From Myxococcales bacterium (GTDB taxonomy: Bacteria; Myxococcota_A; Polyangia; Haliangiales; Haliangiaceae): a stretch of DNA of 64,000 nucleotides. Every line of letters starts with the position of its first letter. Within the stretch, counting starts at the first letter, position 1. A program made the position numbers and the translations under genes. Positions 7,604 through 23,611 of this stretch are shown here, one piece after another. The DNA lies in the NCBI GenBank assembly GCA_028287135.1, contig JAQBQE010000007.1, positions 1-64,000 on the forward strand, given 5' to 3'. A model generated the notes under the pieces. It saw only the letters and a program-made list of their open reading frames with translations, was not told where the DNA came from and made no database searches.

Positions 7604-9709
7604 GTGTTCGAGCTGACGTGGAGCTGGCTGGCTGCGCCGTACGTCGCGTGCGCGCTGACGATGCTCGTCGTGATCGTGCTGGGGGCGCTGGTTCGTGGCG
7701 ATCGCGTGATGCGGCTCGGTGTGGTCGGAGCTGCGACCACGACGCTTCCGTGGGCCGTGTGCTCAGCGCTCGCGGCGTGCTCGCAGGATCCCGATACCGC
7801 GACGCGCCTGCTGCGGGTCGGCCAGGGCCCGCTCGCGCTGGTCGGGCCGAACCTGTTGCTCGTGCTGCTCGGGGTCAGCGGTCAGCTCGAGCGCCATCGC
7901 TGGGTCGCGCGTGTCGCCGGCATCGTTGGCGTCGGGCTCCTCGCCCTGTGCTGGGGGACGACCTGGACCGTGCCCGGCGTGCAGCGTCTGCCGTCGGGTC
8001 TGCTGTTCATCACCGCGGGTCCGTTGACCGACCTCCATTTCTCGCAGCTCGCGTTGTGGATGATGCTCGGCATCTTCATCGTGCGGCGATCTTCGACGGT
8101 GGGAGAGAAGCGCCGGCTCGTGCGCTACCTGATCGCCGTGCTCGCGCTCGGCACGGTCGGAGCGATCGACATGCTGACCGTGCACGGCGTCTGGGGCGCC
8201 TATCCGATCGCGTGGCTGCCCGCCCTCGTCGCCGGTGTGATCGCGATCTATCTCGTGCACTACACCGATCTCCTCCGTCCGCGCGGCTACGACCGCGGCG
8301 TGATGATCGAAGCCGTGGGCTTCGCGATCGCGGTCGTCGTGATCGGCGTGGCCTCGTTGCTGTTCCGCGGTGCCGATCCGCTGAGCTTCATCCTCATCGC
8401 GGGTGTCGTGTGGGGCGGTTCGCTCGCCGGGAGCTGGGCGATCGCCGAGCAACGCCCGGTGCGCGTCGCCGGTGAGCGTGCGCTCGAGGAGCTCGTCTCC
8501 CGGCTCGCCGACGTTGACGACGAGCGCATCGTTGGAACGCGACTCGCCGAGCTGTGGACCGGCATCGGCGTTCACGTTCGCTCGACCTGGCGCACCGACG
8601 GTGATCTGCTCGTCGACGTCGCGAGTGGCGCGACCCGGCCGCTCGAGCCTGCCGTCGCAAGCTGGCTGGTCGAGCACGCACAACCGATCGCGCCCACCGA
8701 TCTCGCGACGATCAAGCTCGGCCCGGTCCGGCCTGCGCTCGAGCGGCTGGTCACCGCCAACGGCGCATCGCTGATCGTTCCGCTCGTCGACCGTGCGGCG
8801 CTGGTCGGGATCGTGGAGGCGGAGCACGGAGACGCGCTGCGTGAGGAGGAGCGCGGGCTGGTCGTGGAGTCCGCACGCGCCGCGGCACGCGCGTTGACCT
8901 ATGCGGCGCTCGCGCGCGAAGCGGCGAAGGAAGGCGCGACCGCCCGCGAGGTCGAGGTCGCTGAGGCGATGCGCTTGCAGGCCTCGGCGAGCCGCGATGA
9001 CGAGCTCGGTCGATGGACGGTCGCCGCCGAGTACAAGACGGCACCGCGGACGACCGGGGCCGGATGGTCGGCGACGCTGCTCCCCGACGGCCGGCTCGCC
9101 GTGATGGTGACCGAAGCGCAGGCTCATGGGGTCGCGGCGGCGCTCGCCACCGCAGCGCTCACCGGGGCGTTCGCTGCAGCGACCACCGGCTCGGCAACGC
9201 TACAGCTCGACGATCTGGTGGCGAGCCTGCGGGCGAGCACGCAAGGCGTGATGCGTGGCGGTGAGCCGATCGCCGCGTTCGTCGCGCTGCTCGATGCCGA
9301 TCGCCAGACGGTGGCGTGGGCGTGCGCCGGTCACCCGGGTGCGCACATCGTCGGACCGATCGCCTACGATCTCGCCCAGTTTCCGCAAGGCTCGATCTCG
9401 GGACCGCGACCGACATCGATCGCGCTCGGGGGCGGTGGCGCCGCGCTCGGCGCGTTCCTCCCCCAGGCGACGCGCGGTGAGAGTCCCTTGCCTCACGATT
9501 CGCTCCTCGTGATCGCGTCGACCGCCGTGCGAGGCGAGGACGATGCCCGCTGGCAGACCTCGCTGCGCGAGCAAGCGCCCGCCGGGCCGCGGCTGGCGAC
9601 GGTCCTCGTCGACGTCGCCATCCGCCGCGGCGACCTTCACGAGGATTTCTTGGCGGTCGTCATCCGTCAGCGACCGGATCGACGCAGTGGCCCCATCGTC
9701 TCGCGGTAA
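7604..9709 (+). CDS. Multi-pass membrane protein with GAF and degenerate SpoIIE-like domain
   Basis: A 701-residue protein starting at GTG 7604. Residues 1-280 contain about eight hydrophobic spans (a 7TM-type sensor). Residues about 300-445 form a GAF-like domain. Residues about 455-695 have the SpoIIE/PP2C layout found in RsbU-like phosphatases. Metal-site motifs are altered: where active enzymes have GGDWYD this has TGAGWSA, GDVxGHG becomes TEAQAHG, and the terminal DD motif becomes ED in EDFLAVVIR. It is therefore likely catalytically dead or a pseudophosphatase that senses a membrane or redox signal. It is followed 18 bases later by the SPFH pair. Confidence 0.78.
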   Translation: MFELTWSWLAAPYVACALTMLVVIVLGALVRGDRVMRLGVVGAATTTLPWAVCSALAACSQDPDTATRLLRVGQGPLALVGPNLLLVLLGVSGQLERHRWVARVAGIVGVGLLALCWGTTWTVPGVQRLPSGLLFITAGPLTDLHFSQLALWMMLGIFIVRRSSTVGEKRRLVRYLIAVLALGTVGAIDMLTVHGVWGAYPIAWLPALVAGVIAIYLVHYTDLLRPRGYDRGVMIEAVGFAIAVVVIGVASLLFRGADPLSFILIAGVVWGGSLAGSWAIAEQRPVRVAGERALEELVSRLADVDDERIVGTRLAELWTGIGVHVRSTWRTDGDLLVDVASGATRPLEPAVASWLVEHAQPIAPTDLATIKLGPVRPALERLVTANGASLIVPLVDRAALVGIVEAEHGDALREEERGLVVESARAAARALTYAALAREAAKEGATAREVEVAEAMRLQASASRDDELGRWTVAAEYKTAPRTTGAGWSATLLPDGRLAVMVTEAQAHGVAAALATAALTGAFAAATTGSATLQLDDLVASLRASTQGVMRGGEPIAAFVALLDADRQTVAWACAGHPGAHIVGPIAYDLAQFPQGSISGPRPTSIALGGGGAALGAFLPQATRGESPLPHDSLLVIASTAVRGEDDARWQTSLREQAPAGPRLATVLVDVAIRRGDLHEDFLAVVIRQRPDRRSGPIVSR

Positions 9710-9727
9710 CCTGCGCGCGGAGGGTCC

Positions 9728-12036
<2,309 letters not shown>

Positions 12037-12075: not shown

Positions 12076-12861
12076 GTGGGGGCGCGGGTCGGTCGTGGAA
12101 CGACCGGGACTTTGATCGGTCTCCTCGGGGACCTGCACGATCTCGCGCACACGCCCGCGGATGCGATCGCCGAGCTCGGCAAGGGGCTGTTGCGGAACAT
12201 CGGTGGTGACGCGATCGGCATCGGCGAGGTCCCCGATTTCTCGCCGGGCGTTTCGGCGCCGCTCGTCAACGCGATCGCGATCGGTCTGAAGACGGCGCGT
12301 GAGCTCGAGGTCGCGATCGGCCGCCCGATGACCCAATCGATCGACTGCGATCCGGCGATGGTGCCGCTGCGGAGGCTCACGGCTCGGGCCCGTGGCCGCG
12401 CGACGACGGCCCGCCAGTCCGATCTGATCTCGGCCGCGACGGTCCGGCGCAGCTCCTACCTCGACGAGCTCACACGGATCACCGGGATCCAGGACGTCAT
12501 GTACTCGGCCATCCCGGTCGGTTCGAACGCGCGTGTGGTCAGCGTCGCCCTGTGGCGCGAGCGGGCCCGATCGTTTCGGCTTCGCGATCGCGAGGCGATG
12601 AACACGTTCCATCGCGCGGCCGGCAGTCTGTATCCTCGCCTCGTCGCACGCGTTGGCGAGGTCGTGCATGTCGTGCACGACCTGCGGCCAAGCTTGCGGA
12701 AGACCCTCGACGCCTTGCTCGCGGGCTTGACCGAGAAGGAGATCGCGCACCGGCGCCAGCTCAGCACGCACACCGTGCACGAGTACGTGAAGCTGCTCTA
12801 CACGCGGCTCGGGGTCTCGAGTCGCGCCGAGCTGCTCGCGCTGTTCGTCAAAGCCCCCTGA
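12076..12861 (+). CDS. LuxR-type helix-turn-helix regulator
   Basis: A 261-residue protein. The C-terminal about 205-255 is a LuxR/GerE helix-turn-helix: LLAGLTEKEIAHRRQLSTHT followed by VHEYVKLLYTRLGV. The N-terminal 200 residues form a sensor-like region without a motif I can name. GTG 12076 is the listed start, and GTG 12072 lies in another frame. The gene sits just before the thirteen-gene biosynthetic operon but is separated from it by a strong hairpin. It may regulate that operon in trans, which is an inference from position only. Confidence 0.78.
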   Translation: MGARVGRGTTGTLIGLLGDLHDLAHTPADAIAELGKGLLRNIGGDAIGIGEVPDFSPGVSAPLVNAIAIGLKTARELEVAIGRPMTQSIDCDPAMVPLRRLTARARGRATTARQSDLISAATVRRSSYLDELTRITGIQDVMYSAIPVGSNARVVSVALWRERARSFRLRDREAMNTFHRAAGSLYPRLVARVGEVVHVVHDLRPSLRKTLDALLAGLTEKEIAHRRQLSTHTVHEYVKLLYTRLGVSSRAELLALFVKAP

Positions 12862-12873
12862 ACAGGGGGCTTT
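12850..12873 (+). terminator. Hairpin overlapping the regulator stop codon
   Basis: A perfect 10-base-pair stem (AAAGCCCCCT at 12850-12859, AGGGGGCTTT at 12864-12873) with a GAAC loop. The TGA stop at 12859-12861 lies at the top of the left arm and loop. There is no long T tract beyond TTT. It probably limits read-through from the regulator into the operon at 12912, or acts as an mRNA-stabilising 3' structure. Confidence 0.55.
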
Positions 12874-12911: not shown

Positions 12912-13718
12912 ATGGGGTGGAAGGACTATCGAGGTCGCGCCGTGTTGATCACGGGCGGCACGAAGGGCATTGGCCTGGCGATCGGCCTGGCCTTCGCGCG
13001 GCGTGGTGCTGCCGTGACGTTGACGCAGAAATGGGGCTCCGCGGATGCCGATGCGATCCGCGCGACCTTCGCCGCGGTCGACGCTCCCCAGCCGATGATC
13101 GTCGATGCCGACGTCGCTCACGACGACGATGCCCGCGCGGTGCTCGCCCAGATCCGCGAGCGGCATGATCGTCTCGATGTGTTCGTCTCGAACGTCGCGT
13201 TCGCGCCGGTGGTGAAGAGTCTCGAGGACTACACGCGCCGCGGGCTCGCGACAGCGATCGACTACAGCACGTGGCCGATCGTGGCGTACACGACGGCGAC
13301 CAAGGCGATCTTCGGTCACTACCCGCGTTACGTGGTCGGGTTGTCGTCGGAAGGCGCCGATAGCTATCACGTGCACTACGACGTCATCGGTGCCGCCAAG
13401 GCCGCCCTCGAGACCGTGTGCAGGTATCTCAATCACCGCCTGCGCGGAGAGGGAACCCGGGTCAACGCGGTTCGTACCCGGTTCACGAGCACGGACTCGC
13501 TGCGGGCAACGTTCGGTGACGAGTTCGAGAGCTTCGTCGAGAAGCACGCGCCCGGCACGTTCACCACCCCCGACGAGGTCGCCGAGGCCGTGTTCGGGCT
13601 GTGCTCGGGCCTGATGGATGGGGTCGCCGGGCAGGTCGTCACCGTCGATCGCGGCGGAAACCTGTTCGATAACTTCAGCCGGCTCTACGACACCCGTCAG
13701 CGCGGCACGCTCGGATGA
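12912..13718 (+). CDS. FabI/FabL-like SDR (candidate enoyl-ACP reductase) 1
   Basis: A 268-residue short-chain dehydrogenase/reductase, first gene of the biosynthetic operon. The cofactor motif TGGTKGIG is at 14-21. Instead of the usual YxxxK, the active site is Y156-x6-K163 (YDVIGAAK). That spacing is typical of FabI/FabL enoyl-ACP reductases rather than ketoreductases, and the following AALETVCRYL helix also matches FabL. It is therefore predicted to reduce an enoyl-ACP double bond with NAD(P)H. It ends in a four-base ATGA overlap with a paralogue of the same type. Confidence 0.8.
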   Translation: MGWKDYRGRAVLITGGTKGIGLAIGLAFARRGAAVTLTQKWGSADADAIRATFAAVDAPQPMIVDADVAHDDDARAVLAQIRERHDRLDVFVSNVAFAPVVKSLEDYTRRGLATAIDYSTWPIVAYTTATKAIFGHYPRYVVGLSSEGADSYHVHYDVIGAAKAALETVCRYLNHRLRGEGTRVNAVRTRFTSTDSLRATFGDEFESFVEKHAPGTFTTPDEVAEAVFGLCSGLMDGVAGQVVTVDRGGNLFDNFSRLYDTRQRGTLG

Positions 13719-14524
13719 AGCCACCTGGTCTGTACGACGGTCGGGTGGTGCTCGTCACCGGCGGGACGAAGGGCATCGGCCTCGCCACGGCGCTCGCGTT
13801 CGCGCAGCACGGCGCGCGCGCCGTGCTCACGCACAAGTGGGGCAGCGCCGATGAAGACGAGCTCCGCGCCCAGTTCCGCGCGCTCGGTGCCCCCGAGCCG
13901 CTGATCCTCGAGGCGGACATCTCGCGCAGCGAGGACACCGACCGCCTGTTCGCACAGATCGCCGAGCGCTGCGGCCGGATCGATGCGTTCATCAGCAACG
14001 CGTCCGCCGCCGTCACCGTGCAGTCGCTCGACGATCTCACGGAGCGGGCGTTCGCAAAGAGCATGCGAGCCACCGCGTGGCCGACCGTGGAGTACACGCT
14101 CGCGGCCAAGAAGCATCTCGGCGCGTTTCCCCGTTACGTGGTGCTGATGTCGTCGGATGGGCCGGATCGGTTCACGCCGGCGTACGACTTCGTCGCGTGT
14201 GGCAAGGCCGCCGCTGAGAGCCTGTGCCGTTATCTCGCGTACCGGCTTCGCGACGAGGACGTCCGCGTCAACGTGATCCGCTCGCGCGCGATCAAGACCG
14301 ACGCCTTCACCGATACGTTCGGGTCGGAGTTCTACGGCTTCCTGCGCAAGCTCGTCCCGGACGAGTGGTTCATGACCGTTGAGGAAGTCGCCGATGCCAC
14401 GTTTGGCCTGTGTAGCGGGATGTTCGACGCGATGACCGGGCAGGTCGTGATGGTCGATCGCGGCAACACGTTCGCGGATGGGATCTCCGTGATCTACGAG
14501 CAGCGCGCGGAGCTCGGGTTGTGA
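13715..14524 (+). CDS. FabI/FabL-like SDR (candidate enoyl-ACP reductase) 2
   Basis: A 269-residue paralogue of the preceding protein. It shares the TGGTKGIG cofactor loop, a WGSAD motif just after the second strand and the FabI/FabL-type Y157-x6-K164 site (YDFVACGK). The two are clearly diverged, so they may act on different enoyl chains (for example straight and beta-branched), or form a heterodimer as described for some SDR pairs. The start ATG overlaps the upstream TGA, and the stop overlaps the next GTG. Confidence 0.8.
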   Translation: MKPPGLYDGRVVLVTGGTKGIGLATALAFAQHGARAVLTHKWGSADEDELRAQFRALGAPEPLILEADISRSEDTDRLFAQIAERCGRIDAFISNASAAVTVQSLDDLTERAFAKSMRATAWPTVEYTLAAKKHLGAFPRYVVLMSSDGPDRFTPAYDFVACGKAAAESLCRYLAYRLRDEDVRVNVIRSRAIKTDAFTDTFGSEFYGFLRKLVPDEWFMTVEEVADATFGLCSGMFDAMTGQVVMVDRGNTFADGISVIYEQRAELGL

Positions 14525-15474
14525 GCACCGCCGTTCTGATGTTCCCCGGGCAGAGCTCGAAGTGTCCGGACATGATCGAGAAGCTCGCCTCGACCTCGCC
14601 CGAGAGTGCGGCGCTCGTTGCGCGGGCGTCGGAGATCCTCGGGCGCGACCTCCTGGCGCACTACGGCGCGACCAACACGGCGATGTTCGCGAGCAACCGC
14701 GATGTCCAGGTCGGCGTGTTCCTCGCCAATCATCTGCACCTCGCCGCGCTCACGCGCGCGGGTGTCGAGGCGGCGTGGTCGGTCGGGCTCAGCCTCGGCG
14801 AGTACAACCACCTCGTCCACATCGGCGCGCTGACGTTCGAGGATGCGCTACCGCTGATCGACGCGCGCGGCCGGCTCTACGAGGACGCGGCGAGCACCGA
14901 GGCCGAGAGCGGCGTCATGGTGTCGGTGTTCCCGGTCGAGGCCGGGCTCGTCGAGCACACGATCACCGCGCTCGGCCTCGGCGGACGCGCGGTGATCGGG
15001 CTCTACAACTCCCCGCGCCAGCAGGTGCTGTCGGGGGAACGCGCAGCGGTCGATCAGGTCATCGCCGCGCTCGAGGCCGAGGTGTTCGTCGATGCCACCG
15101 TGATCGAGCCCCGGATCCCGATGCACGCACCGAGGTTCGCCCCGGTCGGCGAGCGGCTCGGTGCCGTCCTCGCGGATACGCGGCTCACCGTGCCGCGCCT
15201 TCCGTACGTGCCGAACGTGCTCGGAACGGTGCTCGAGGCGGCGACGGTCGGCGACGTCCGGTCGTGCCTGGTGGCTCACGCCTCGCAGTCGGTGCGCTGG
15301 CAGGCGAGCATCGAGGCGCTCGCCGCGCGCGTGTCGGACCCGGTGTTCGTCGAGGTCGGGCCGCGTGCGGTCCTCTACAACATGATCGGCCGCGGATGGA
15401 CGCCAGGACGCCGGGCCAAGACCGACGGCCCCGACCTCGGGGCCATCGCAGCGGAGCTCGAGTATGCAGGCTGA
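14521..15474 (+). CDS. Malonyl-transferase-like acyltransferase (FabD/trans-AT type)
   Basis: A 317-residue acyltransferase of the FabD/AT fold. Q11 is in FPGQSS, and the nucleophile elbow is GLSLGE with S91 (the usual GHSLGE His is Leu). R116 in DARGR sits where FabD binds the malonyl carboxylate, and catalytic H202 is in IPMHAP. It is predicted to load malonyl (possibly acetyl) units from CoA onto the operon's carrier protein. Being free-standing, it would serve in trans. GTG start in a GTGA overlap; 11-base overlap with the dehydratase gene. Confidence 0.82.
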   Translation: MSTAVLMFPGQSSKCPDMIEKLASTSPESAALVARASEILGRDLLAHYGATNTAMFASNRDVQVGVFLANHLHLAALTRAGVEAAWSVGLSLGEYNHLVHIGALTFEDALPLIDARGRLYEDAASTEAESGVMVSVFPVEAGLVEHTITALGLGGRAVIGLYNSPRQQVLSGERAAVDQVIAALEAEVFVDATVIEPRIPMHAPRFAPVGERLGAVLADTRLTVPRLPYVPNVLGTVLEAATVGDVRSCLVAHASQSVRWQASIEALAARVSDPVFVEVGPRAVLYNMIGRGWTPGRRAKTDGPDLGAIAAELEYAG

Positions 15475-15994
15475 CGAGATGGAAGCGATCATGCGGTCGG
15501 CGCGCAAGCGGCCGCTGTTCGTGCCGGCGGCCGACCACCGCGTCGAGCTCGGTCGTCCGGACATCGAGAAGTTGATCCAGCACCGCGATCCGTTCCTGTT
15601 CGTCGATCAGATCACCGCATTCGACCCGGTGGACCTGAAGATCGAGGGCCGGCGACGCGTCGATCCCGCCGATCCGGTGTTCCGCGGCCACTTCCCCGGC
15701 AACCCGATCTATCCCGGCGTGCTCCAGGTCGAGACCATGGGCCAGCTCGGGCTGTGCATCTTCGGGCTCGCGCACGCCGCGCGCGGGACCTCCAGCGATC
15801 AGCCGCAAGCGATCCTCGGGCTCAAGATCCATCACGCGGCATTCCTCGCTCCGGTCCGCGCCGGTGACGAGCTGGTGTCGCTGGCGACCGTCCTCGACTG
15901 GAACGAGTACACCGGCCTGTGCGCCGGCCAGCTCTACTGCAACGACATCGTCTGCTGCACCGCGATCATGGAGGTCTACTTTGTCGACGCCTGA
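15464..15994 (+). CDS. FabZ-like hot-dog 3-hydroxyacyl-ACP dehydratase
   Basis: A 176-residue protein. The core (about 33-172) is a FabA/FabZ hot-dog fold with HRDPFLFVD, then FRGHFPGNPIYPGVLQVE. H76 and E90 correspond to the catalytic His and Glu. It should dehydrate 3-hydroxyacyl-ACP to enoyl-ACP after the ketoreductase. The N-terminus is about 25 residues longer than FabZ. ATG 15464 gives an 11-base overlap with the AT gene, and an in-frame ATG at 15479 is possible. The next gene starts inside its end. Confidence 0.85.
   Translation: MQADEMEAIMRSARKRPLFVPAADHRVELGRPDIEKLIQHRDPFLFVDQITAFDPVDLKIEGRRRVDPADPVFRGHFPGNPIYPGVLQVETMGQLGLCIFGLAHAARGTSSDQPQAILGLKIHHAAFLAPVRAGDELVSLATVLDWNEYTGLCAGQLYCNDIVCCTAIMEVYFVDA
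15970..15983 (+). promoter_or_regulatory. Ribosome-binding site deciding a TTG start
   Basis: GGAGGT at 15970-15975 lies five bases before TTG 15981 and inside the end of the dehydratase gene. No ATG or GTG gives the expected ketosynthase N-terminus (STPERIVITGMS), so this Shine-Dalgarno match supports TTG initiation. Confidence 0.7.
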
Positions 15995-17270
15995 ACGGAT
16001 CGTCATCACGGGAATGTCGATCAACACGCCGCTGGGCGATACGCTCGGAGGCTTCCTCGACAACCTGCTCGTCGGCAAGTCTGCGCTGTCGCGGTGGAAG
16101 AAGATCGATGTCTCCCGCTGCTACTCGAAGGTCGGCGCGGATCTCTCCGACTACGACGTCGATGCGAAGCTGCGCAGGCTCGAGGGCCTGCTGCCGCCCG
16201 AGATCTGGAAGCGCGCGCGCAAGCTGATCTCGAAGAGCCCGTGGACGACGAAGCTGACGATCCTGATGAGCCTCGACGCGTACATGGACGCGCAGATCGC
16301 TCCCGGGACCATCGACATGGACAGCGTCGCGGCGATCGTCGCCGGCCACAACATCAACTTCAACCACCAGTACGAGAACCGGATCCAGTACGTCGAAGAG
16401 CCGGACTACATGGACTCGTTGCTCGCGCTGACCGGGCTCGACACCGACCACGCTGGCTGCGTCTCCGATGCGCTCGGGATCCGGGGCCCGATCTACACGG
16501 TCGGTGCGGCGTGCGCGAGCGGCAACACGGCGCTGCGCTGCGCGATCGACGAGCTGCGCTACCACGACGTCGAGATGGCGATCGTCGTCGGTGCGGTCCT
16601 CGATTTCTCGCCGGTCGAGCTCCACGCGATGGCGCTGATGGGCGCGATCACGTTCCAGAGCTTCAACGATGATCCGGAACAGGCGTGCCGTCCCTACGAC
16701 ACGGCACGCGAGGGCTTCGTGCCTGCGCACGGTGGCGGCGCGATGGTGCTCGAGACCCTCGCGTCGGCGAAGAAGCGTGGTGCGCGGATCTATGCCGAGA
16801 TCCTCGGGGTGGAGGCGGGCTCCGACGCCAATCACCTGCCGCAGCCGTCGGAAGACGGGCAGGCGAGGGTGATGAAGAAGCTGCTCGACAAGTGCGGCAT
16901 CGCGCCCGAGCAGATCGACTACATCAACGCCCACGCGACCTCGACCCCGCTCGGCGACCTCACCGAGCTGCGCTCGATCAAGCGCGTGTTCGGCGACCAT
17001 GCGTACAAGCTCAAGCTCAACGCGACCAAGTCCATGCTCGGTCACACGTGCTGGGCGGCCCCGGTCGTCGAGACCATCGCCTCGGTGTTGCAGATGCGCG
17101 CCGGCAAGCTGCACCCATCGATCAACATCGCCAACCTCGACCCCGAGGTCGATCTCGATATCTGCCGCGGCACCACCGCGGTCGACTGGCCGGTCAAGAT
17201 GCTGATGAAGAACTCGTTCGGCTTCGGTGGCATCAACTGCGTGAGCATCCTCGCGCGCTACGAGGACTAG
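15981..17270 (+). CDS. Beta-ketoacyl synthase (KAS II/FabF-like)
   Basis: A 429-residue condensing enzyme. The nucleophile is C178 in GAACASGN. The histidines lie in NAHATSTPLGD and LGHTCWAAPVVE (after a conserved KSMLGH-type Lys), so the Cys-His-His site is complete. It should carry out decarboxylative Claisen condensation of acyl and malonyl-ACP. Beta-branching systems usually include a KS with Ser in place of Cys that only decarboxylates malonyl-ACP. This one keeps Cys and there is no second KS in the operon. TTG start as argued above; 14-base overlap with the dehydratase. Confidence 0.86.
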   Translation: MSTPERIVITGMSINTPLGDTLGGFLDNLLVGKSALSRWKKIDVSRCYSKVGADLSDYDVDAKLRRLEGLLPPEIWKRARKLISKSPWTTKLTILMSLDAYMDAQIAPGTIDMDSVAAIVAGHNINFNHQYENRIQYVEEPDYMDSLLALTGLDTDHAGCVSDALGIRGPIYTVGAACASGNTALRCAIDELRYHDVEMAIVVGAVLDFSPVELHAMALMGAITFQSFNDDPEQACRPYDTAREGFVPAHGGGAMVLETLASAKKRGARIYAEILGVEAGSDANHLPQPSEDGQARVMKKLLDKCGIAPEQIDYINAHATSTPLGDLTELRSIKRVFGDHAYKLKLNATKSMLGHTCWAAPVVETIASVLQMRAGKLHPSINIANLDPEVDLDICRGTTAVDWPVKMLMKNSFGFGGINCVSILARYED

Positions 17271-17273
17271 CGC

Positions 17274-18014
17274 GTGGTGTTCTTTGTCACCGGAGGTTCG
17301 CGCGGGATCGGCGCCGCGATCGTGCTCGCTGCCGCGCGTGCCGGCCACAGCGTCGCGTTCACCTATGCGACCAACGAGGGCGCAGCCGCCGAGGTTGCAC
17401 GGCAGGCACGCGAGATCGCTCCGACCCAGAAGTTCGTTGCCTACCGGCTCGACGTGCGGCGCTCTGCCGAGGTCGAGGCGGTCGGTGACCGCGTGCTCGA
17501 TGACTTCGAGACCGTCGACGTCCTCGTCGCGAACGCGGGCATCAACAAGAACAACCTCGTCGCCTCGATGTCGGATGAGGAGTGGTCGTCGGTGATCGAG
17601 ACCAACCTCAGCGGCGCGTTCTACGTGTGCCGCCAGTTCCTGCCGACGTTCCTCGCCAATCGTTCGGGCCGGATCATCCTGATCTCGTCGCTCGGCGCCA
17701 CCGGCGTCTCGGGCCAGGCGAACTACTGCGCGAGCAAGGCGGGGCTGCTCGGCCTGTCAGCGACGCTCGCCAAGGAGTACGGGCGCAAGGGCATCACGAG
17801 CAACGTGATCTCCCCCGGCTTCTTCGAGACCGACATGACCCGCGAGGGAATGTCGGCAGCCAACCGCGAGTTCTGGATCAAGTACTGCCCGCTCGGCCGG
17901 CTCGGCGAGCTGCCCGAGATTGCCGAGCTGGTGACGTTCCTCGCGTCGCCGGGCGCCGGCTACATCAACGGCCAGGAGCTCCGGGTCAACGGCGGCCTCG
18001 GGTGGGCTCCGTGA
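17274..18014 (+). CDS. FabG-like 3-ketoacyl-ACP reductase
   Basis: A 246-residue classical SDR. The cofactor loop TGGSRGIG is at 6-13, NAG at 87-89 and the catalytic triad S139, Y151, K155 with standard YxxxK spacing. The C-terminal INGQELRVNGG segment is typical of FabG. Predicted to reduce the 3-ketoacyl-ACP formed by the ketosynthase with NADPH. Only three bases separate it from the ketosynthase stop. The start may be GTG 17274 or 17277. Its stop overlaps the HMG-synthase-like gene (GTGA). Confidence 0.87.
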   Translation: MVFFVTGGSRGIGAAIVLAAARAGHSVAFTYATNEGAAAEVARQAREIAPTQKFVAYRLDVRRSAEVEAVGDRVLDDFETVDVLVANAGINKNNLVASMSDEEWSSVIETNLSGAFYVCRQFLPTFLANRSGRIILISSLGATGVSGQANYCASKAGLLGLSATLAKEYGRKGITSNVISPGFFETDMTREGMSAANREFWIKYCPLGRLGELPEIAELVTFLASPGAGYINGQELRVNGGLGWAP

Positions 18015-19240
18015 CGATCCGCGTCGGGATCGAGAAGCTGCGCGCGTATCCCGGCAGCCTGTCGCTCGCGATGACGGCCCTGTGCGAGGCGCGTGGTCAC
18101 GATCTCGCCGACATCCGCGACGTGATGATGATCGACGAGCGCTCGCTCAACGTGCCGTGGGAGGACCCGGTCACGATGGCGGTCAACGCCGCCGCGCCGA
18201 TGCTGACCGACCGCGACCGCGAGCAGATCGGGCTGTTGATCGTCGCGAGCGAGAGTGGCGTCGACCAGGAGAAGCCGATGAGCACCTGGGTCCAGCGCTA
18301 TCTCGGGCTGCCGTCGCGGGTGCGCAACATCGAGGTCAAGCACGCGTGCTACGGCGCGACGGCCGCGCTCCAGCTCGCAGCGAGCTGGGTCGCCTCCGGT
18401 GTTGCACCCGGCGAGAAGGCACTGATCATCAATACCGACGAGAGCCGGATGCACCTCGGCAAGCCGTGGGAGTTCGTCATGGGCGCCGCGGCGGTCGCGG
18501 TGCTCGTGTCGGCGACGCCGCAGGTGCTCGAGCTCGAGCTCGGTGCGACCGGCGTGTTCACCCACGAGGTCTCGGATCTGACCCGCCCGACGTCGCGGGT
18601 CGAGACCGGCAACAGCGAGACCAGCCTGCTGTCCTATCTCGAGGCGCTCGACGGCGCCTACGACGATTACGTGCGCCGGCGACCGGAGGCGAACGAGCCG
18701 GGATACTTCGCGCGCAGCATCTATCACCTGCCGTTCGGCGGGATGGGCCTCGTCGCGCACCGCGCGGTGCTCCGCCGGTCGGGCGCGTTCACCCGGCAGG
18801 CCGCGCTCGCCGACTTCACGACCAAGACCCTGCCGTCCCTCGCGTACGTGCGGCGGATGGGCGGCACCTACGGCTCGAGCACGTTCCTCGCGCTGATGTC
18901 GCTGATCGACCACGATCCAGCGCTCCGCGCCGGCGACCGGATCGGCATGTTCTCCTACGGCTCGGGCTCGTGTGCGGAGCTGTGGAGCGGCCGGCTCTGC
19001 GCCGAGGCGCGCGATGTGGTGCGCGCCGCCGAGCTCCCCGCGCTCCTCGATGCCCGCCGACCTGTCTCGGTACCGGAGTACGAGGCGGTCGAGACCGCGC
19101 GCACCGATGCCGTCGACCAGGGTGAGCTCACCACCGATCGCCGCGCCCTCGGTGACTGGTACGAGCGCTTCTACGCGGGCCAGAAGCGGCTCGTGTTCGA
19201 CGGCGTGCACGAGTTCTACCGCCGCTACGAGTGGAGCTGA
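18011..19240 (+). CDS. HMG-CoA synthase-like enzyme (HCS, beta-branching type)
   Basis: A 409-residue HMG-CoA synthase-family protein. The catalytic triad is E81 (VASESG), C113 (HACYGATAAL) and H239 (YHLPFGG), almost the same positions as in bacterial MvaS. It adds an acetyl unit to a beta-ketoacyl thioester, giving an HMG-type intermediate. Set between a ketoreductase and two ECH-type genes with a carrier protein downstream, it fits the HCS of beta-branching cassettes (as in myxovirescin, curacin, bacillaene) better than a mevalonate enzyme. GTG start in a GTGA overlap; the stop overlaps the next ATG by one base. Confidence 0.88.
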   Translation: MTIRVGIEKLRAYPGSLSLAMTALCEARGHDLADIRDVMMIDERSLNVPWEDPVTMAVNAAAPMLTDRDREQIGLLIVASESGVDQEKPMSTWVQRYLGLPSRVRNIEVKHACYGATAALQLAASWVASGVAPGEKALIINTDESRMHLGKPWEFVMGAAAVAVLVSATPQVLELELGATGVFTHEVSDLTRPTSRVETGNSETSLLSYLEALDGAYDDYVRRRPEANEPGYFARSIYHLPFGGMGLVAHRAVLRRSGAFTRQAALADFTTKTLPSLAYVRRMGGTYGSSTFLALMSLIDHDPALRAGDRIGMFSYGSGSCAELWSGRLCAEARDVVRAAELPALLDARRPVSVPEYEAVETARTDAVDQGELTTDRRALGDWYERFYAGQKRLVFDGVHEFYRRYEWS

Positions 19241-19932
19241 TGGCGAGCCCGACCGTGATCCCGATCGGCACCCGGCTCGACGAGGCCACCGTGTGTACGA
19301 TCGCCAGGGGCCTCGCCGCGGGAACGACCGCGAGCGTGATCGTGATCGAGGGCGAGCCCGAGCGGTTCTGCCTCGGCATGGACTTCGCGCAGGCGATCGC
19401 CGGACAACCCGCACAGCTCGAGCCGTTCGCGCGGTTGATCGGTTCGCTGCTCCGCTCGCCACGACCGACGCTGGCGGTGATCGACGGTCCCACCCTCGGT
19501 GGTGGCCTCGGGGTCGCGGCCGCGTGCGACTTCGTGCTCGCGACGGAGCGCGCGACGTTCGGGCTTCCCGAGGGGCTGTATGGCCTCGCACCGGCGATCA
19601 TTCGCCCGGCGCTGCTGACCCGGCTGTCCCCGCAGCAGCTGCGGCTGCTCGTGATGACGTGCCACTCGCGTTCGGCCTCCCAGGCCGCTGCGCTCGGGCT
19701 CGTGGACGAGGTCGTCGCGGTCGGTGATCTCGAGCGAGCGCGCCGCAGCGCGATCCGCCGGCTCGCCCGCGTGCGCACCGAGACCGTCGTTGCCTGCCGC
19801 CGGCTCGAACATGGCGAGCTCGACCACCAGCTGAACGCCGGCGTGACCGAGACGGCAGCCGCACTCGCGACCGAGACGGTGGTCGAGGCGCTCCGGGCGT
19901 TCACCGCCGAGGAGCAGCTGCCATGGGTTTGA
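19240..19932 (+). CDS. Enoyl-CoA hydratase family, ECH1-type dehydratase
   Basis: A 230-residue crotonase-fold protein. FCLGMDF at 43-49 and GPTLGGGLGVAAACDF at 83-98 supply the two oxyanion-hole loops. The segment TFGLPEGLYGLAPA resembles PksH/CurE-type ECH1 enzymes, which dehydrate the HMG-ACP intermediate to 3-methylglutaconyl-ACP. It follows the HCS gene directly and precedes the ECH2-type gene, the usual cassette order. ATG 19240 is preferred over GTG 19231 because it forms a TGATG junction. Confidence 0.82.
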   Translation: MASPTVIPIGTRLDEATVCTIARGLAAGTTASVIVIEGEPERFCLGMDFAQAIAGQPAQLEPFARLIGSLLRSPRPTLAVIDGPTLGGGLGVAAACDFVLATERATFGLPEGLYGLAPAIIRPALLTRLSPQQLRLLVMTCHSRSASQAAALGLVDEVVAVGDLERARRSAIRRLARVRTETVVACRRLEHGELDHQLNAGVTETAAALATETVVEALRAFTAEEQLPWV

Positions 19933-20672
19933 CGGATCGCCCCGGGCTGCTCCGTGCGCAGCTCGACGACGGGGTCGCCCTCCTGACGATGGATGACCCG
20001 ACGGATCACAACGCGCTGTCGCACGCGATGGTGAACGCGCTCGGCGATGCGTTCTCGGCGATCGCGCGGGCCGACGACATCGGTGCCGTCGTGCTCGCGG
20101 GCTCATCCGAGATGTTCTCGAGCGGGGCGAGCCGTGGGGTGATCGACGATCTCACGTCGGGGCGGCGCGATTCCTCGGAGCTGCTGTTGCCGCGCTTGCT
20201 GCTCGACTGCCCGGTTCCCTGCCTCGCCGCGATGGCGGGTCATGCGGTGGGCGGCGGGCTCGCGCTCGGCCTCGCCGCGGACTTCGTGCTGCTCGGGCTC
20301 GAGAGCCGGTATTGCCTCAACTTCGTCGACCTCGGCTTCACGCCGGGCATGGGGACGACGCGGCTCCTCGAGCACGTGCTGTCGCCCGCGATCGCCCACG
20401 AGCTGCTGTTCTCGGGCGAAGCGCGCCTCGGTCGCGACTTCGTCGGCAAGAGCGGCATCAACTACATCCTCCCGCGCGCCGAGGTGATGCCGAAGGCACT
20501 CGACCTGGCGGCCCGGATCGCCGAGAAGCCGCGCGCGGTGCTGACCGCGCTCAAGCGGACGCTGTCGATCCGTCGCCGCGAGGCCTTTGAATCCGCGCGC
20601 ACCCTCGAAACCCTGATGCACACGATCTCGTTCGCCCGATGGAACCAGCAGGCACGAAAGCAGGAGTCATGA
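19923..20672 (+). CDS. Enoyl-CoA hydratase family, ECH2-type decarboxylase
   Basis: A 249-residue crotonase-fold protein. FSSGAS at 65-70, AGHAVGGGLALGLAADFVLL around 105-124 and NFVDLGFTPGMGTT at 133-146 are close to the pattern I know from PksI/CurF ECH2 enzymes. These decarboxylate 3-methylglutaconyl-ACP to the beta-methyl enoyl-ACP. Sequence differences from the neighbouring ECH1 are large, so they are functionally distinct paralogues. It overlaps ECH1 by ten bases and the ACP gene by four (ATGA). Confidence 0.84.
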   Translation: MGLTDRPGLLRAQLDDGVALLTMDDPTDHNALSHAMVNALGDAFSAIARADDIGAVVLAGSSEMFSSGASRGVIDDLTSGRRDSSELLLPRLLLDCPVPCLAAMAGHAVGGGLALGLAADFVLLGLESRYCLNFVDLGFTPGMGTTRLLEHVLSPAIAHELLFSGEARLGRDFVGKSGINYILPRAEVMPKALDLAARIAEKPRAVLTALKRTLSIRRREAFESARTLETLMHTISFARWNQQARKQES

Positions 20673-20947
20673 GCAAGGAACACGTCTTTTCGGTCGTGAA
20701 GAAGCACCTGATGCAGACCGTCGATGGTCTCTCTGAGTCCCAGATCACTCTCGACAAGTCGATGAAGGACCTCGGTGCGAACTCGCTCGATATCGTCGAG
20801 ATCGTCTCGGTCTCGATGCGCGAGCTCAAGGTCAAGGTCCCGCGCTCCGAGCTCTCGAAGCTCGCGGACATCGGCGGCCTCGTCGACCTGCTGCATCTGA
20901 TCTCGACGCAGGCGGTGCCGGCCTCCGGTGACGCCAAGCCCACGTGA
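20669..20947 (+). CDS. Acyl carrier protein
   Basis: A 92-residue carrier protein. DLGANSLDIVEIV at 34-46 is the phosphopantetheine attachment site with S39 as acceptor. It would hold the growing chain or the acetyl/malonyl donor for the HCS. It is the only carrier in the operon, whereas beta-branching normally uses a donor and an acceptor ACP. Either it does both jobs or the other partner is the housekeeping ACP. ATG 20669 (ATGA overlap) is chosen over the earlier in-frame ATG inside ECH2. Confidence 0.9.
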   Translation: MSKEHVFSVVKKHLMQTVDGLSESQITLDKSMKDLGANSLDIVEIVSVSMRELKVKVPRSELSKLADIGGLVDLLHLISTQAVPASGDAKPT

Positions 20948-21585
20948 GCCCAGCTCTCGAACCAGGACAGATCCGCCTCGTCTGCGCGCGGATCGATGAC
21001 GTCGTTCGCGGTGCGCTCGTCCTCGACGCCGGTGAACGTGCGCGGGCGGCCGCGATCACGCGTGCCGACGATGCGCGGGCCTTCGTGGCCGCGCGCACGG
21101 TGCTGCGGCGCCTGCTCGGTCACGAGCTCGCGTGCGATGGGGAGTCGATCGAGATCGTCGAGACGGCGTCGGGGAAACCTCGGCTCGCGGGAGTCGGTGA
21201 TCTCGAATTCAACGTGTCCCATGGCGGCGAGCTCGTGGTCGTCGCGCTGGCGCGCGGGCGAGCCGTGGGCGTCGACGTCGAGCCGATGATCGCGAGCCGG
21301 CGTCGGATCGATGACATCTCGGAGCTCTCGCTCGGGCCTCGCGCGCTCGAGCACCTGCGCAGCGTGCCCGCGTCCGAGCGTGGCGCGATGTTCACGCGGT
21401 GGTGGGTGCGTTGCGAGGCGGTGTGCAAGGCAACCGGCGTGGGTCTGATCGTCCCGCTCGAGGACGATGTGCCAGACGGCATCCACGTCGAGGAAATCAG
21501 CGTCGGTCCAGGTCACGCAGCGGCGGTGGCCTGGAGTGGTGGCGCGGCGACGATCGAGATCGAGGACCAAGGAGCCGGATCATGA
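20944..21585 (+). CDS. 4'-phosphopantetheinyl transferase (Sfp-like)
   Basis: A 213-residue protein with GVDVE, the Mg-binding motif of phosphopantetheinyl transferases, and WWVRCEAVCKATG, a variant of the WxxKEAxxK motif with Cys in the first Lys position. LEFNVSHGGELVVVAL is also typical. It should convert the adjacent apo-ACP to holo-ACP using CoA. A dedicated transferase implies that the pathway is not served by the fatty-acid AcpS alone. GTG start and ATGA stop overlaps link it to the ACP and the oxoamine synthase. Confidence 0.85.
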   Translation: MSPALEPGQIRLVCARIDDVVRGALVLDAGERARAAAITRADDARAFVAARTVLRRLLGHELACDGESIEIVETASGKPRLAGVGDLEFNVSHGGELVVVALARGRAVGVDVEPMIASRRRIDDISELSLGPRALEHLRSVPASERGAMFTRWWVRCEAVCKATGVGLIVPLEDDVPDGIHVEEISVGPGHAAAVAWSGGAATIEIEDQGAGS

Positions 21586-22871
21586 AACCGCGGCCTGAGT
21601 ACTACGACTACACGTACGACATGTTCATCGCCAGCATCGATGGCGAGCAGTCCGAGGCGTCTCGCTTCTCGGACTGGATCGACGCCGCCGAGCGCGATGG
21701 CGTCTATGCGTTCGAGGCACCGCGCCTCGAAGGGCAGAAGACGATGGTCCACGCGCGCCGCAACGATGGCACGCCGCTCCATCTCCTCAACTTCTCCTCG
21801 TACAACTACCTCGGCTACGGCATGCACCGCGAGGTGATCGACGCTGCCAAGGCCGCGCTCGATCAGTACGGGCTCGGTGCCTGTAGCTCGCCGGTCCAGG
21901 CCGGCACGAACGAGCTGCACAAGGCGCTCGAGCAGCAGCTGATCGAGTTCGTCGGGCTGCCGGGTCGTGGCGTCTCGTTGTTCTCGTCGGGGTACGCGGT
22001 CAATACCGGCACGATCTCCGCGCTGATGAAGCGCCGGCACCACATCGTGATCGACAAGTCGGCGCACATGTCGATCCTCGAGGGCGCGCAGCTCGCGCGA
22101 TCCAAGGTCCACTACTTCGAGCACAACGACGCGGACCACCTGAAGAAGATCCTCGAGGAGATCGCACCGACCGCGTCGCGGATCCTGGTGTGCACCGAGG
22201 GCGTGTTCAGCGCCGACGGTGACTATGGCGCTCTCGACAAGATCGTCCCGCTCGCGAAGTCGTATGGCGCGCAGGTGCTCGTCGACGAGGCGCACTCGTT
22301 TGGACTGTGCGGCAAGCAGGGTCGCGGTGTCGCCGAGGAGCTCGGCGTCCTCGATCAGGTCGACTACCTGGTCGTGACGTTCTCGAAGGCGCTCGGTGGG
22401 ATCGGCGGTGCCGTGATCACGCGCCACGAGATCGCCCGCTACATCAACTGGTACGCGCGCTGCCGGATGTTCTCGTGCGCTCTCGATCCGGCGGTCACCG
22501 CAGGCGTCACGAAGGCGCTGGAGCTCGCCGGTGGCAGCGATGGCGCGGCTCGGCGCACCCGGCTCCAGCACAACGCCGCCGTCTTGCGCGGTGCGCTCGA
22601 GGGCCACGTGAACACGGGACGGAGCCGGAGCTGGATCGTCCCGGTTATCTACGGCCCCGAGAATCTGAGCATCCCGCTCGCCGACTGGCTGCAGCGCCAC
22701 GGCCTCGACGGCAGCGTGATGTCGTTCCCTGCGGTGCCCGTCAACGAGGCCCGGATCCGTCTGTTCGTCACGTCGGAGCACGACGAGACGCAGCTGCAGC
22801 AGTGCGCGGACATCGTGCGCGGTGCCGCGGTCGAGCTCGAGTTCACGATCACCAAGAAAGGCACACCATGA
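21582..22871 (+). CDS. Alpha-oxoamine synthase (AONS/BioF-like, PLP-dependent)
   Basis: A 429-residue fold-type I PLP enzyme. Cofactor-binding D235 is in DEAHSFG and Schiff-base K269 in FSKALGGIGG. GSSG-type binding residues appear in ACSSPVQAGTNELH. Family members condense an amino acid with an acyl thioester, losing CO2, to give an alpha-aminoketone (BioF, KBL, serine palmitoyltransferase, CqsA). A biotin role is unlikely because no bio genes are present. In this operon it probably releases the ACP-bound chain. The N-terminal about 50 residues are longer than in BioF and could contact the ACP. Confidence 0.88.
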   Translation: MKPRPEYYDYTYDMFIASIDGEQSEASRFSDWIDAAERDGVYAFEAPRLEGQKTMVHARRNDGTPLHLLNFSSYNYLGYGMHREVIDAAKAALDQYGLGACSSPVQAGTNELHKALEQQLIEFVGLPGRGVSLFSSGYAVNTGTISALMKRRHHIVIDKSAHMSILEGAQLARSKVHYFEHNDADHLKKILEEIAPTASRILVCTEGVFSADGDYGALDKIVPLAKSYGAQVLVDEAHSFGLCGKQGRGVAEELGVLDQVDYLVVTFSKALGGIGGAVITRHEIARYINWYARCRMFSCALDPAVTAGVTKALELAGGSDGAARRTRLQHNAAVLRGALEGHVNTGRSRSWIVPVIYGPENLSIPLADWLQRHGLDGSVMSFPAVPVNEARIRLFVTSEHDETQLQQCADIVRGAAVELEFTITKKGTP

Positions 22872-23611
22872 CGACCGCGCTGGATCACGTTGGCAAAGCA
22901 AAGCTCACCCTCAGCTGGCGCGTTCGCAAGCAGGTGATGTTCCTGTACGAGATCGATTCCGATGCGATCGCGGCCCACGTGCCGCCCTCGCTCGAGGCGA
23001 TGGAGGTCCGTCCCGGCGTGTCGCTGATCGCGATCGAGTGTCTGCACTACTACAGCGATCACTTCCGCGAGGGCTATCGCGAGTTTCTCGAGATGGTGCT
23101 CACCGTCGCCGTGCAGCCTGATCTGTCGATCGACATGCCGGTGCCGCGGTTCTGCATGCACGCGATCAGCGTCATCTCGGACTCCCCGGAGTTCGTCGAG
23201 CAGGAGGGCCACTTGCTGTACACGCCCACCGAGCTGGTCCCCGGGCTCCGCATGGAATTCAGCGAGGACGGCGGCGGCGTCGACATCTACGACGGCACCA
23301 CGCCGATGGTGATGTGCCGCAACACGCACCCGAACCCGCCGTACGACCACAAGGTGCTGTGGGGCCAGTACTACACGAACACCAACGGCCTCCAGCAAGG
23401 CATCTGGCGCTGGGAAGGCCAGATGTTCGAGCACATGAAGGCCGGCGACTGGGGCTCGTTTCATCCCCATCCGGTGTTCAAGGGCATCGACCTCAGCCGG
23501 ATCCGCGGGTGCTACCGGCAGATGATGGCGAAGCCGGAGACCGTCACCGACGTCCGCTTCTATCACCTCGGGCTGGTCTCCGACCGCGCGGGCAGTCGGC
23601 GCGGCGAGTAG
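22868..23611 (+). CDS. Acetoacetate decarboxylase-like protein
   Basis: A 247-residue soluble protein, last gene of the operon. It resembles the acetoacetate-decarboxylase-like fold: the N-terminal YEIDSDAIAAHVPPSLEAME segment and the proline- and tyrosine-rich core are suggestive. I could not identify the catalytic Lys with confidence, so decarboxylase activity is unproved. It may instead act as a dehydratase or cyclase tailoring the released product. ATG 22868 overlaps the oxoamine synthase stop (ATGA). Convergent with the GAF gene next to it. Confidence 0.6.
   Translation: MTTALDHVGKAKLTLSWRVRKQVMFLYEIDSDAIAAHVPPSLEAMEVRPGVSLIAIECLHYYSDHFREGYREFLEMVLTVAVQPDLSIDMPVPRFCMHAISVISDSPEFVEQEGHLLYTPTELVPGLRMEFSEDGGGVDIYDGTTPMVMCRNTHPNPPYDHKVLWGQYYTNTNGLQQGIWRWEGQMFEHMKAGDWGSFHPHPVFKGIDLSRIRGCYRQMMAKPETVTDVRFYHLGLVSDRAGSRRGE

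Follow-up and report, generated by a model that had tools for sequence, protein, structure and literature searches.

Described systems and the present locus

Beta-branching cassettes have been described from modular polyketide synthase (PKS) systems such as bacillaene (PksF-I and AcpK; PMC7501309) and curacin (CurD and CurF), in which HCS, an enzyme of the 3-hydroxy-3-methylglutaryl (HMG)-ACP-synthase type, works with ECH1 and ECH2. Polyketide-type chain building has also been coupled to an alpha-oxoamine synthase (AONS), as reported for PfSgaAB of Pseudomonas fluorescens MYb115 (PMC12134224). PfSgaAB comprises one iterative type I PKS, and beta-branching is not reported in the available parts of that account. 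In E. coli BL21 and Caulobacter, the genes for ceramide synthesis, acpR-spt-epi(CerR)-aca(bCerS), pair an AONS with an acyl carrier protein (ACP), and AasR is described as loading the acyl chain (PMC9386255, PMC11087976), and three bacterial serine palmitoyltransferases (SPTs) have been reported to prefer acyl-ACP (PMC9386255). Here, a locus is described at positions 12912-23611 (+ strand) of the window, a stretch of 64,000 nucleotides from a Myxococcales bacterium (contig JAQBQE010000007.1, positions 1 to 64,000). With moderate confidence, we read it as a discrete, ACP-bound beta-branching synthase that feeds an AONS and yields a methyl-branched aminoketone or sphingoid-type base. Protein families, active-site residues, co-conservation, an ACP-AONS fusion in one relative and the neighbouring genes all lend this reading sequence-based support. 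Each half of such a pathway is known, the HCS cassettes from modular PKS and the AONS-released polyketide sphingolipids from the account of PfSgaAB (PMC12134224), and the joining of both would be the new element. This gene set was not found described in the open-access PMC full-text literature, as judged from titles and the starts of abstracts.

Gene content and layout

The locus contains 13 genes in the following order, all on the + strand.

12912..13718, +, SDR1, a candidate FabL-like enoyl-ACP reductase of the short-chain dehydrogenase/reductase (SDR) family (PF13561; FabL and other SDR models below cut-off; Y-x6-K at 156)
13715..14524, +, SDR2, putative second FabL-like reductase (profile matches as SDR family; Y-x6-K)
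14521..15474, +, free acyltransferase, AT (PF00698; TIGR03131 and TIGR00128 below cut-off; GLSLGE Ser91, Arg116, His202)
15464..15994, +, FabZ-like dehydratase, DH (PF07977; FabZ models below cut-off; GHFPG motif)
15981..17270, +, ketosynthase, KS, with TTG start (PF00109, PF02801; best model PRK07103 below cut-off; Cys178-His318-His355)
17274..18014, +, FabG-like ketoreductase, KR (PF13561, PF00106; FabG models below cut-off)
18011..19240, +, HCS, HMG-ACP-synthase type (best PDB match CurD; tree; Glu81-Cys113-His239)
19240..19932, +, ECH1, PksH-like dehydratase (Asp48 and Glu111 align to PksH Asp68 and Glu137)
19923..20672, +, ECH2, PksI/CurF-like decarboxylase (PRK07110 241.5 bits, cut-off 215; CurF and PksI best PDB matches; His233)
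20669..20947, +, ACP (PF00550; GANSLD; best model PRK07117 65.2 bits, cut-off 79)
20944..21585, +, phosphopantetheinyl transferase, PPTase (PF01648, PF22624)
21582..22871, +, AONS of the type A lineage (PF00155; BioF, KBL and SPT models below cut-off; motifs of pyridoxal-phosphate enzymes conserved; trees)
22868..23611, +, protein with the acetoacetate decarboxylase (ADC) fold and without a conserved lysine (fold comparison; alignment of homologues)

Neighbouring genes overlap at 11 of the 12 junctions, the overlaps being 1 to 14 nt long; the exception is KS/KR with a gap of 3 nt. Pfam families could be given to 12 of the 13 proteins, and the remaining one had no Pfam match. Profile scans detected no modular PKS or non-ribosomal peptide synthetase (NRPS) among the 13 genes, and no modular PKS with an acceptor ACP was found in these genes or in the seven flanking proteins scanned. 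An iterative type I PKS of the Sga type is likewise absent, all 13 genes encoding discrete enzymes. Open reading frame (ORF) positions and profile scans thus confirm an earlier note on this DNA, which had reported 13 same-strand genes, 11 of 12 junctions overlapping and no modular PKS or NRPS.

Proposed pathway

From this gene set we infer the order of steps, that the acyl donor is the ACP, that a branch is formed at all, and whatever part the ADC-fold protein plays. The AT would load malonyl onto the ACP, and the KS would both decarboxylate malonyl-ACP to acetyl-ACP and condense. HCS would add acetyl to the beta-ketoacyl-ACP at one or more rounds, after which ECH1 would dehydrate and ECH2 decarboxylate the product. 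One SDR would then reduce the beta-methyl enoyl-ACP, with the remaining rounds passing through KR, DH and SDR. Finally, the AONS would condense acyl-ACP with an amino acid, with loss of CO2, to an alpha-aminoketone of the 3-ketosphinganine type; this product may in turn be modified or cyclised by the ADC-fold protein. The likeliest site of the branch would be a starter of the isovaleryl type, and the chain would then be iso-branched, an assignment that we make tentatively. In the starter version, acetoacetyl-ACP would be converted via HMG-ACP, 3-methylglutaconyl-ACP and 3-methylcrotonyl-ACP to isovaleryl-ACP and then elongated. The window's cluster would make the acyl chain itself, in contrast to the ceramide genes of E. 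coli BL21 and Caulobacter.

If the proposed pathway is correct, HCS beta-branching would also be a lipid-building step, beyond the decoration of modular PKS antibiotics, and the methyl branches of some Myxococcota aminoketones or sphingoid bases would derive from acetate and not from leucine. The locus would represent a second genomic route to polyketide-type aminolipids, the first being the iterative type I PKS of PfSgaAB, and would offer a testable gene set as well as a small, soluble system of discrete enzymes for rebuilding beta-branching.

Kinship of the beta-branching enzymes

Among solved structures in the PDB, the window's HCS scored 271.7 bits with CurD, 248.3 with PksG and 193.5 with the best mevalonate-type enzyme (M. 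xanthus HMG-CoA synthase), whereas a control HMG-CoA synthase of the phylum (L058) gave the opposite pattern (M. xanthus enzyme 380.2 bits, CurD 213.4). In a tree of 32 HCS sequences, the only analysis that a 3.7-kb fragment (L006) entered, the 16 cluster HCS formed one clade (100/100) that joined PksG, CurD and three other cassette HCS (100/99). Eleven mevalonate-type sequences stood apart (100/99); nine of these are labelled from similarity and the tree, and L058 alone was compared with solved structures. ECH2 exceeded the cut-off of PRK07110, had CurF and PksI as its top solved structures and keeps the catalytic His (His233). For ECH1, the best model, PRK07112, remained below cut-off and PksH ranked second among solved structures. 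The reference residues for both enzymes (PksH Asp68 and Glu137, and the catalytic residues of PksI) are those given for bacillaene (PMC7501309), and the equivalent of the window's ECH1 Asp48 is Ser in one relative, L013. Active-site residues are also kept in the window's KS (Cys-His-His), HCS (Glu-Cys-His), AT (Ser/Arg/His), ACP (Ser) and DH (His). Judged by these comparisons, HCS, ECH1 and ECH2 are of the beta-branching (PKS cassette) kind. The earlier note had raised a placement of the three enzymes among those of mevalonate or leucine metabolism as a test of its proposal; the outcome was against such a placement: HCS fell with CurD and PksG, ECH2 best matched CurF and PksI, and ECH1 had PksH among its two best solved structures. 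An origin from mevalonate or leucine-degradation enzymes was rejected on the trees and best matches.

Myxobacteria have an alternative isovaleryl-CoA pathway, in which acetate units are converted to a branched C5 starter via HMG and 3-methylglutaconyl thioesters. This pathway is CoA-bound and uses a mevalonate-type HMG-CoA synthase, and the window differs by its PKS-type HCS and ECH pair. It is highly improbable that HCS, ECH1 and ECH2 of the window form a CoA-bound mevalonate or leucine-degradation side branch of this kind. The chemistry is alike and the route occurs in myxobacteria, but the HCS tree, the best matches and the ECH2 score above the PRK07110 cut-off speak against it.

The decarboxylating KS of classical cassettes has its active Cys replaced (Ser in PksF). 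The Cys is kept in 14 of the 14 cluster KS that reach the site, the sequence of one cluster (L011) being broken there. Such cassettes also have a dedicated donor ACP of the AcpK type; for the window's ACP the best model, PRK07117, which we take to be the AcpK model, gave 65.2 bits, below the cut-off of 79. Both SDRs carry Y-x6-K, which is the FabI/FabL spacing. Separate roles for SDR1 and SDR2 were considered and dropped, as the tree gives no clean separation. The three beta-branching enzymes agree in kind and in catalytic residues with those of the bacillaene and curacin cassettes (PMC7501309 for bacillaene), whereas the window has no modular PKS, keeps the KS Cys, brings its own KR, DH, reductases and AT, and would add release by AONS. 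A further locus (L054:9348-15205) has the order HCS-ECH1-KR-ECH2-SDR-ACP-KS followed by type I PKS frames, and is possibly a link between modular cassettes and discrete clusters.

Conservation of the gene cluster

In 377 genomes sampled from the phylum, cluster-type HCS (46% identity or more) was found in 12, the window's included. A scan of genome contigs added three clusters (L007, L008 and L011) and one fragment; L009 and L010 stand for the contigs that also appear as L044 and L045, and each contig was counted once. DH-KS-KR-HCS are adjacent and in the same order in all 15 clusters (window included), a figure that comes from the wider locus comparison, a separate gene-order count having used 12 hand-entered loci. 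ECH1-ECH2 come after this block in 14 of the 15 clusters, and 14 have an ACP, none being found in L046 by tblastn or motif search. In L011 the frame is broken in DH and KS and ECH2 is partly read; its pieces were kept apart and excluded from the core tree. In genome G196 the operon is split, with AT, ECH1 and ECH2 on contig C188 (L112) and the remainder on C308 (L045). An AONS of type A or B adjoins 10 of the 15 clusters (the window, L012, L013, L014, L044, L045 and L047-L050), and none was seen in L051, which lies at a contig end. Of the co-conservation on which the earlier note had staked its proposal, the ACP (14/15) and an AONS of the wider clade (10/15) were recovered, while the exact 13-gene set is not conserved, the PPTase and the ADC-like gene being variable.

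Two SDRs are present in 15 of 15 clusters and are joined in a single frame or polypeptide in three (L048-L050). This is in keeping with a chain that is methylated internally or at several beta positions (isoprenoid-like) and still released by AONS, and HCS cassettes are reported to act on the growing chains of modular systems (PMC7501309). Substrate length, however, is not readable from the sequences, and we regard internal branching as rather unlikely.

Lineages of the AONS and the ADC-fold protein

The window's AONS belongs to type A with support of 100/100 in three trees; BioF-like and some KBL-like rows were dropped from the two later ones, and L090 also from the last. Type A AONS was found in four of the 377 genomes, all with the cluster, and the ADC-like protein in the identical four. 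With the window left out, three of three type A genomes fall within the 11 cluster genomes among 376, for which the chance is 1.9e-5 if genomes are independent. In L014 a single frame of 541 residues, uninterrupted by a stop, encodes an ACP joined to the AONS. The genome concerned carries on one contig (G057:C116; L014, L113) a cluster with this ACP-fused type A AONS and a type B AONS. Six genomes carry the nearest type B AONS (55% or more), and all six have the cluster; the next AONS group (46-51% to type B) occurs in 14 genomes of one family, none with cluster-type HCS. An early tree (98/93) had united A and B AONS in a clade restricted to clusters; this clade was rejected with more sequences (p-AU 0.0007), because the HCS-free AONS of the 14-genome family are sister to type B. 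Type C AONS, which occurs beside L011 on the other strand and elsewhere in G231 and G335, was also discarded as cluster-linked, its relatives being present in 48 of the 377 genomes, 46 of them without a cluster. In the core tree (KS, KR, HCS and DH), the window groups with cores bearing type B or no AONS (99/99), and a topology that unites the four type A cores is disfavoured (p-AU 0.037). The release enzyme may have been exchanged, or differentially lost from an ancestor having both types, as G057 has.

Neighbourhoods of the HCS-free AONS were read in 6 of the 14 genomes. Three contain AONS, ACP and a GNAT-like protein, two of these also an epimerase-type protein. The other three (L148, L151 and L152) contain KS-bearing PKS frames, KR, a cluster-like SDR, AONS and DH, two with an ACP match; by Pfam, L148 and L152 have AMP-ligase and ACP domains, and L152 also AT. 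These three may represent a PKS-type aminolipid locus of the same phylum without HCS. At L153:7416-13711, an AMP-ligase-ACP-AONS fusion of 1077 aa has as neighbours a sulfotransferase, an epimerase and a weak homologue of the ADC-like protein.

Acetoacetate decarboxylase acts through a Schiff-base lysine. The ADC-like protein has the ADC fold and differs from the acetoacetate-decarboxylase superfamily (ADC, MppR and aldolase-dehydratase) by an identity of only 8-17% and by the lack of an invariant lysine across four homologues. A function as decarboxylase is disfavoured because of the missing lysine. A search of plasmids for the protein gave no match. The occurrence of this partner with type A only bears on a short-chain route, in which isovaleryl- or 3-methylcrotonyl-ACP and an amino acid would give a small aminoketone that is dimerised to a pyrazine or cyclised by the ADC-fold protein. 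The gene set is enough for such a C5 unit; yet KR, DH and two reductases are more than the route needs, and some relatives have ceramide-type genes, which act on long-chain bases in the work cited above, so that we consider a short-chain product improbable.

Ceramide-type genes and the predicted product

CerS was searched in 26 chosen genomes, and CerR in five genomes and the related loci. In G364, G231, G221, G367 and G353, which belong to one family, three of them to one genus, the cluster has a CerS-like gene at a distance of 0.2-2.2 kb. This gene is divergent in four of the genomes, G364 having it on the cluster's strand, and a CerR-like reductase is next in every case except G364. The cluster-side proteins are 32-34% (CerS-like) and 26-29% (CerR-like) identical to E. 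coli BL21 YghO and the BL21 epimerase, respectively, and the corresponding values in the HCS-free loci are 36-41% for the GNAT-like and 28% for the epimerase-type proteins. YghO has been reported as the acyltransferase, and the epimerase as the dehydrogenase/epimerase, of dihydroceramide synthesis (PMC9386255). Away from the cluster, CerS was found in G196, G335 and G042, and CerR in G057 and G042. Some related type B clusters probably go on to ceramides.

Several observations weigh against a branched chain made by the cluster and released by its AONS. A single KS and a single ACP must serve both elongation and the acetyl-donor role. The distribution is patchy, with cluster-type HCS in none of three same-genus and four same-family genomes. 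No AONS was found in the flank examined of L007, L008 and L046, and L011 has only an AONS of another kind on the opposite strand. One clade (99/98) unites types A and B with their HCS-free relatives and leaves outside it the two SPT references, the only known SPT sequences used; since the AONS stand apart from these two, serine is not implied by kinship. At the thresholds used, CerS was not found in the window's genome (G000, 59.5% complete), G351, G362 or G057, nor CerR in G000, G362 or G351. Contig C16 of genome G042 bears a separate AONS as well as CerS and CerR, and the type A cluster of this genome therefore need not serve sphingolipids. The lack of a neighbouring AONS in L007, L008 and L046 would suit a pathway whose only output is branched fatty acids or some other acyl product and beside which an AONS is incidental, as would an ORF of 340 aa, esterase-like by eye, downstream in L007 and L008. 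This too is improbable, as an AONS stands beside 10 of the 15 clusters, overlaps translationally in the window and is ACP-fused in L014.

Because the AONS lies outside the SPT clade, the window's genome has no CerS or CerR match and G042 provides the case above, a sphingoid-type aminoketone and not a ceramide is claimed as the likely product of the window's cluster. The earlier note had suggested, as one of two product hypotheses, an aminoketone or sphingoid-like base; CerS-like genes beside five related clusters and CerR-like genes beside four agree with this, and the window's own genome, 59.5% complete, gave no match to either. Its interpretation as a whole is only partly supported, because the exact gene set varies and the AONS are of two lineages, neither of them seen beside L007, L008, L011, L046 and L051, because the ADC-like protein has no conserved lysine and the window's genome no CerS or CerR match, and because a starter and an internal branch site both fit the sequences. 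Beta-branching enzymes and a discrete set resembling a fatty acid synthase may produce sphingoid bases with methyl branches, and in some type B relatives ceramides, with the type A branch and its lysine-less ADC-fold partner diverting the chain to another aminoketone, a view to which we give somewhat less than an even chance.

Flanking features

One further gene lies directly upstream of SDR1.

12076..12861, +, LuxR-type regulator (PF00196)

The LuxR-type gene possibly regulates the cluster; no homologue was found in the related loci searched. Base composition gave no hint of foreign DNA. A pattern scan found no promoter-like sites, and terminator-like sites numbered 3 compared with 2.6 in shuffles. 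A perfect 11-bp inverted repeat at 12850-12873 spans the stop codon of the LuxR-type gene, 38 nt ahead of SDR1, and may be a terminator or operator, although the pattern scan did not call it. Upstream of the LuxR-type gene, at 7604-12036, a gene for a SpoIIE-like protein precedes two overlapping SPFH/Band 7 genes.

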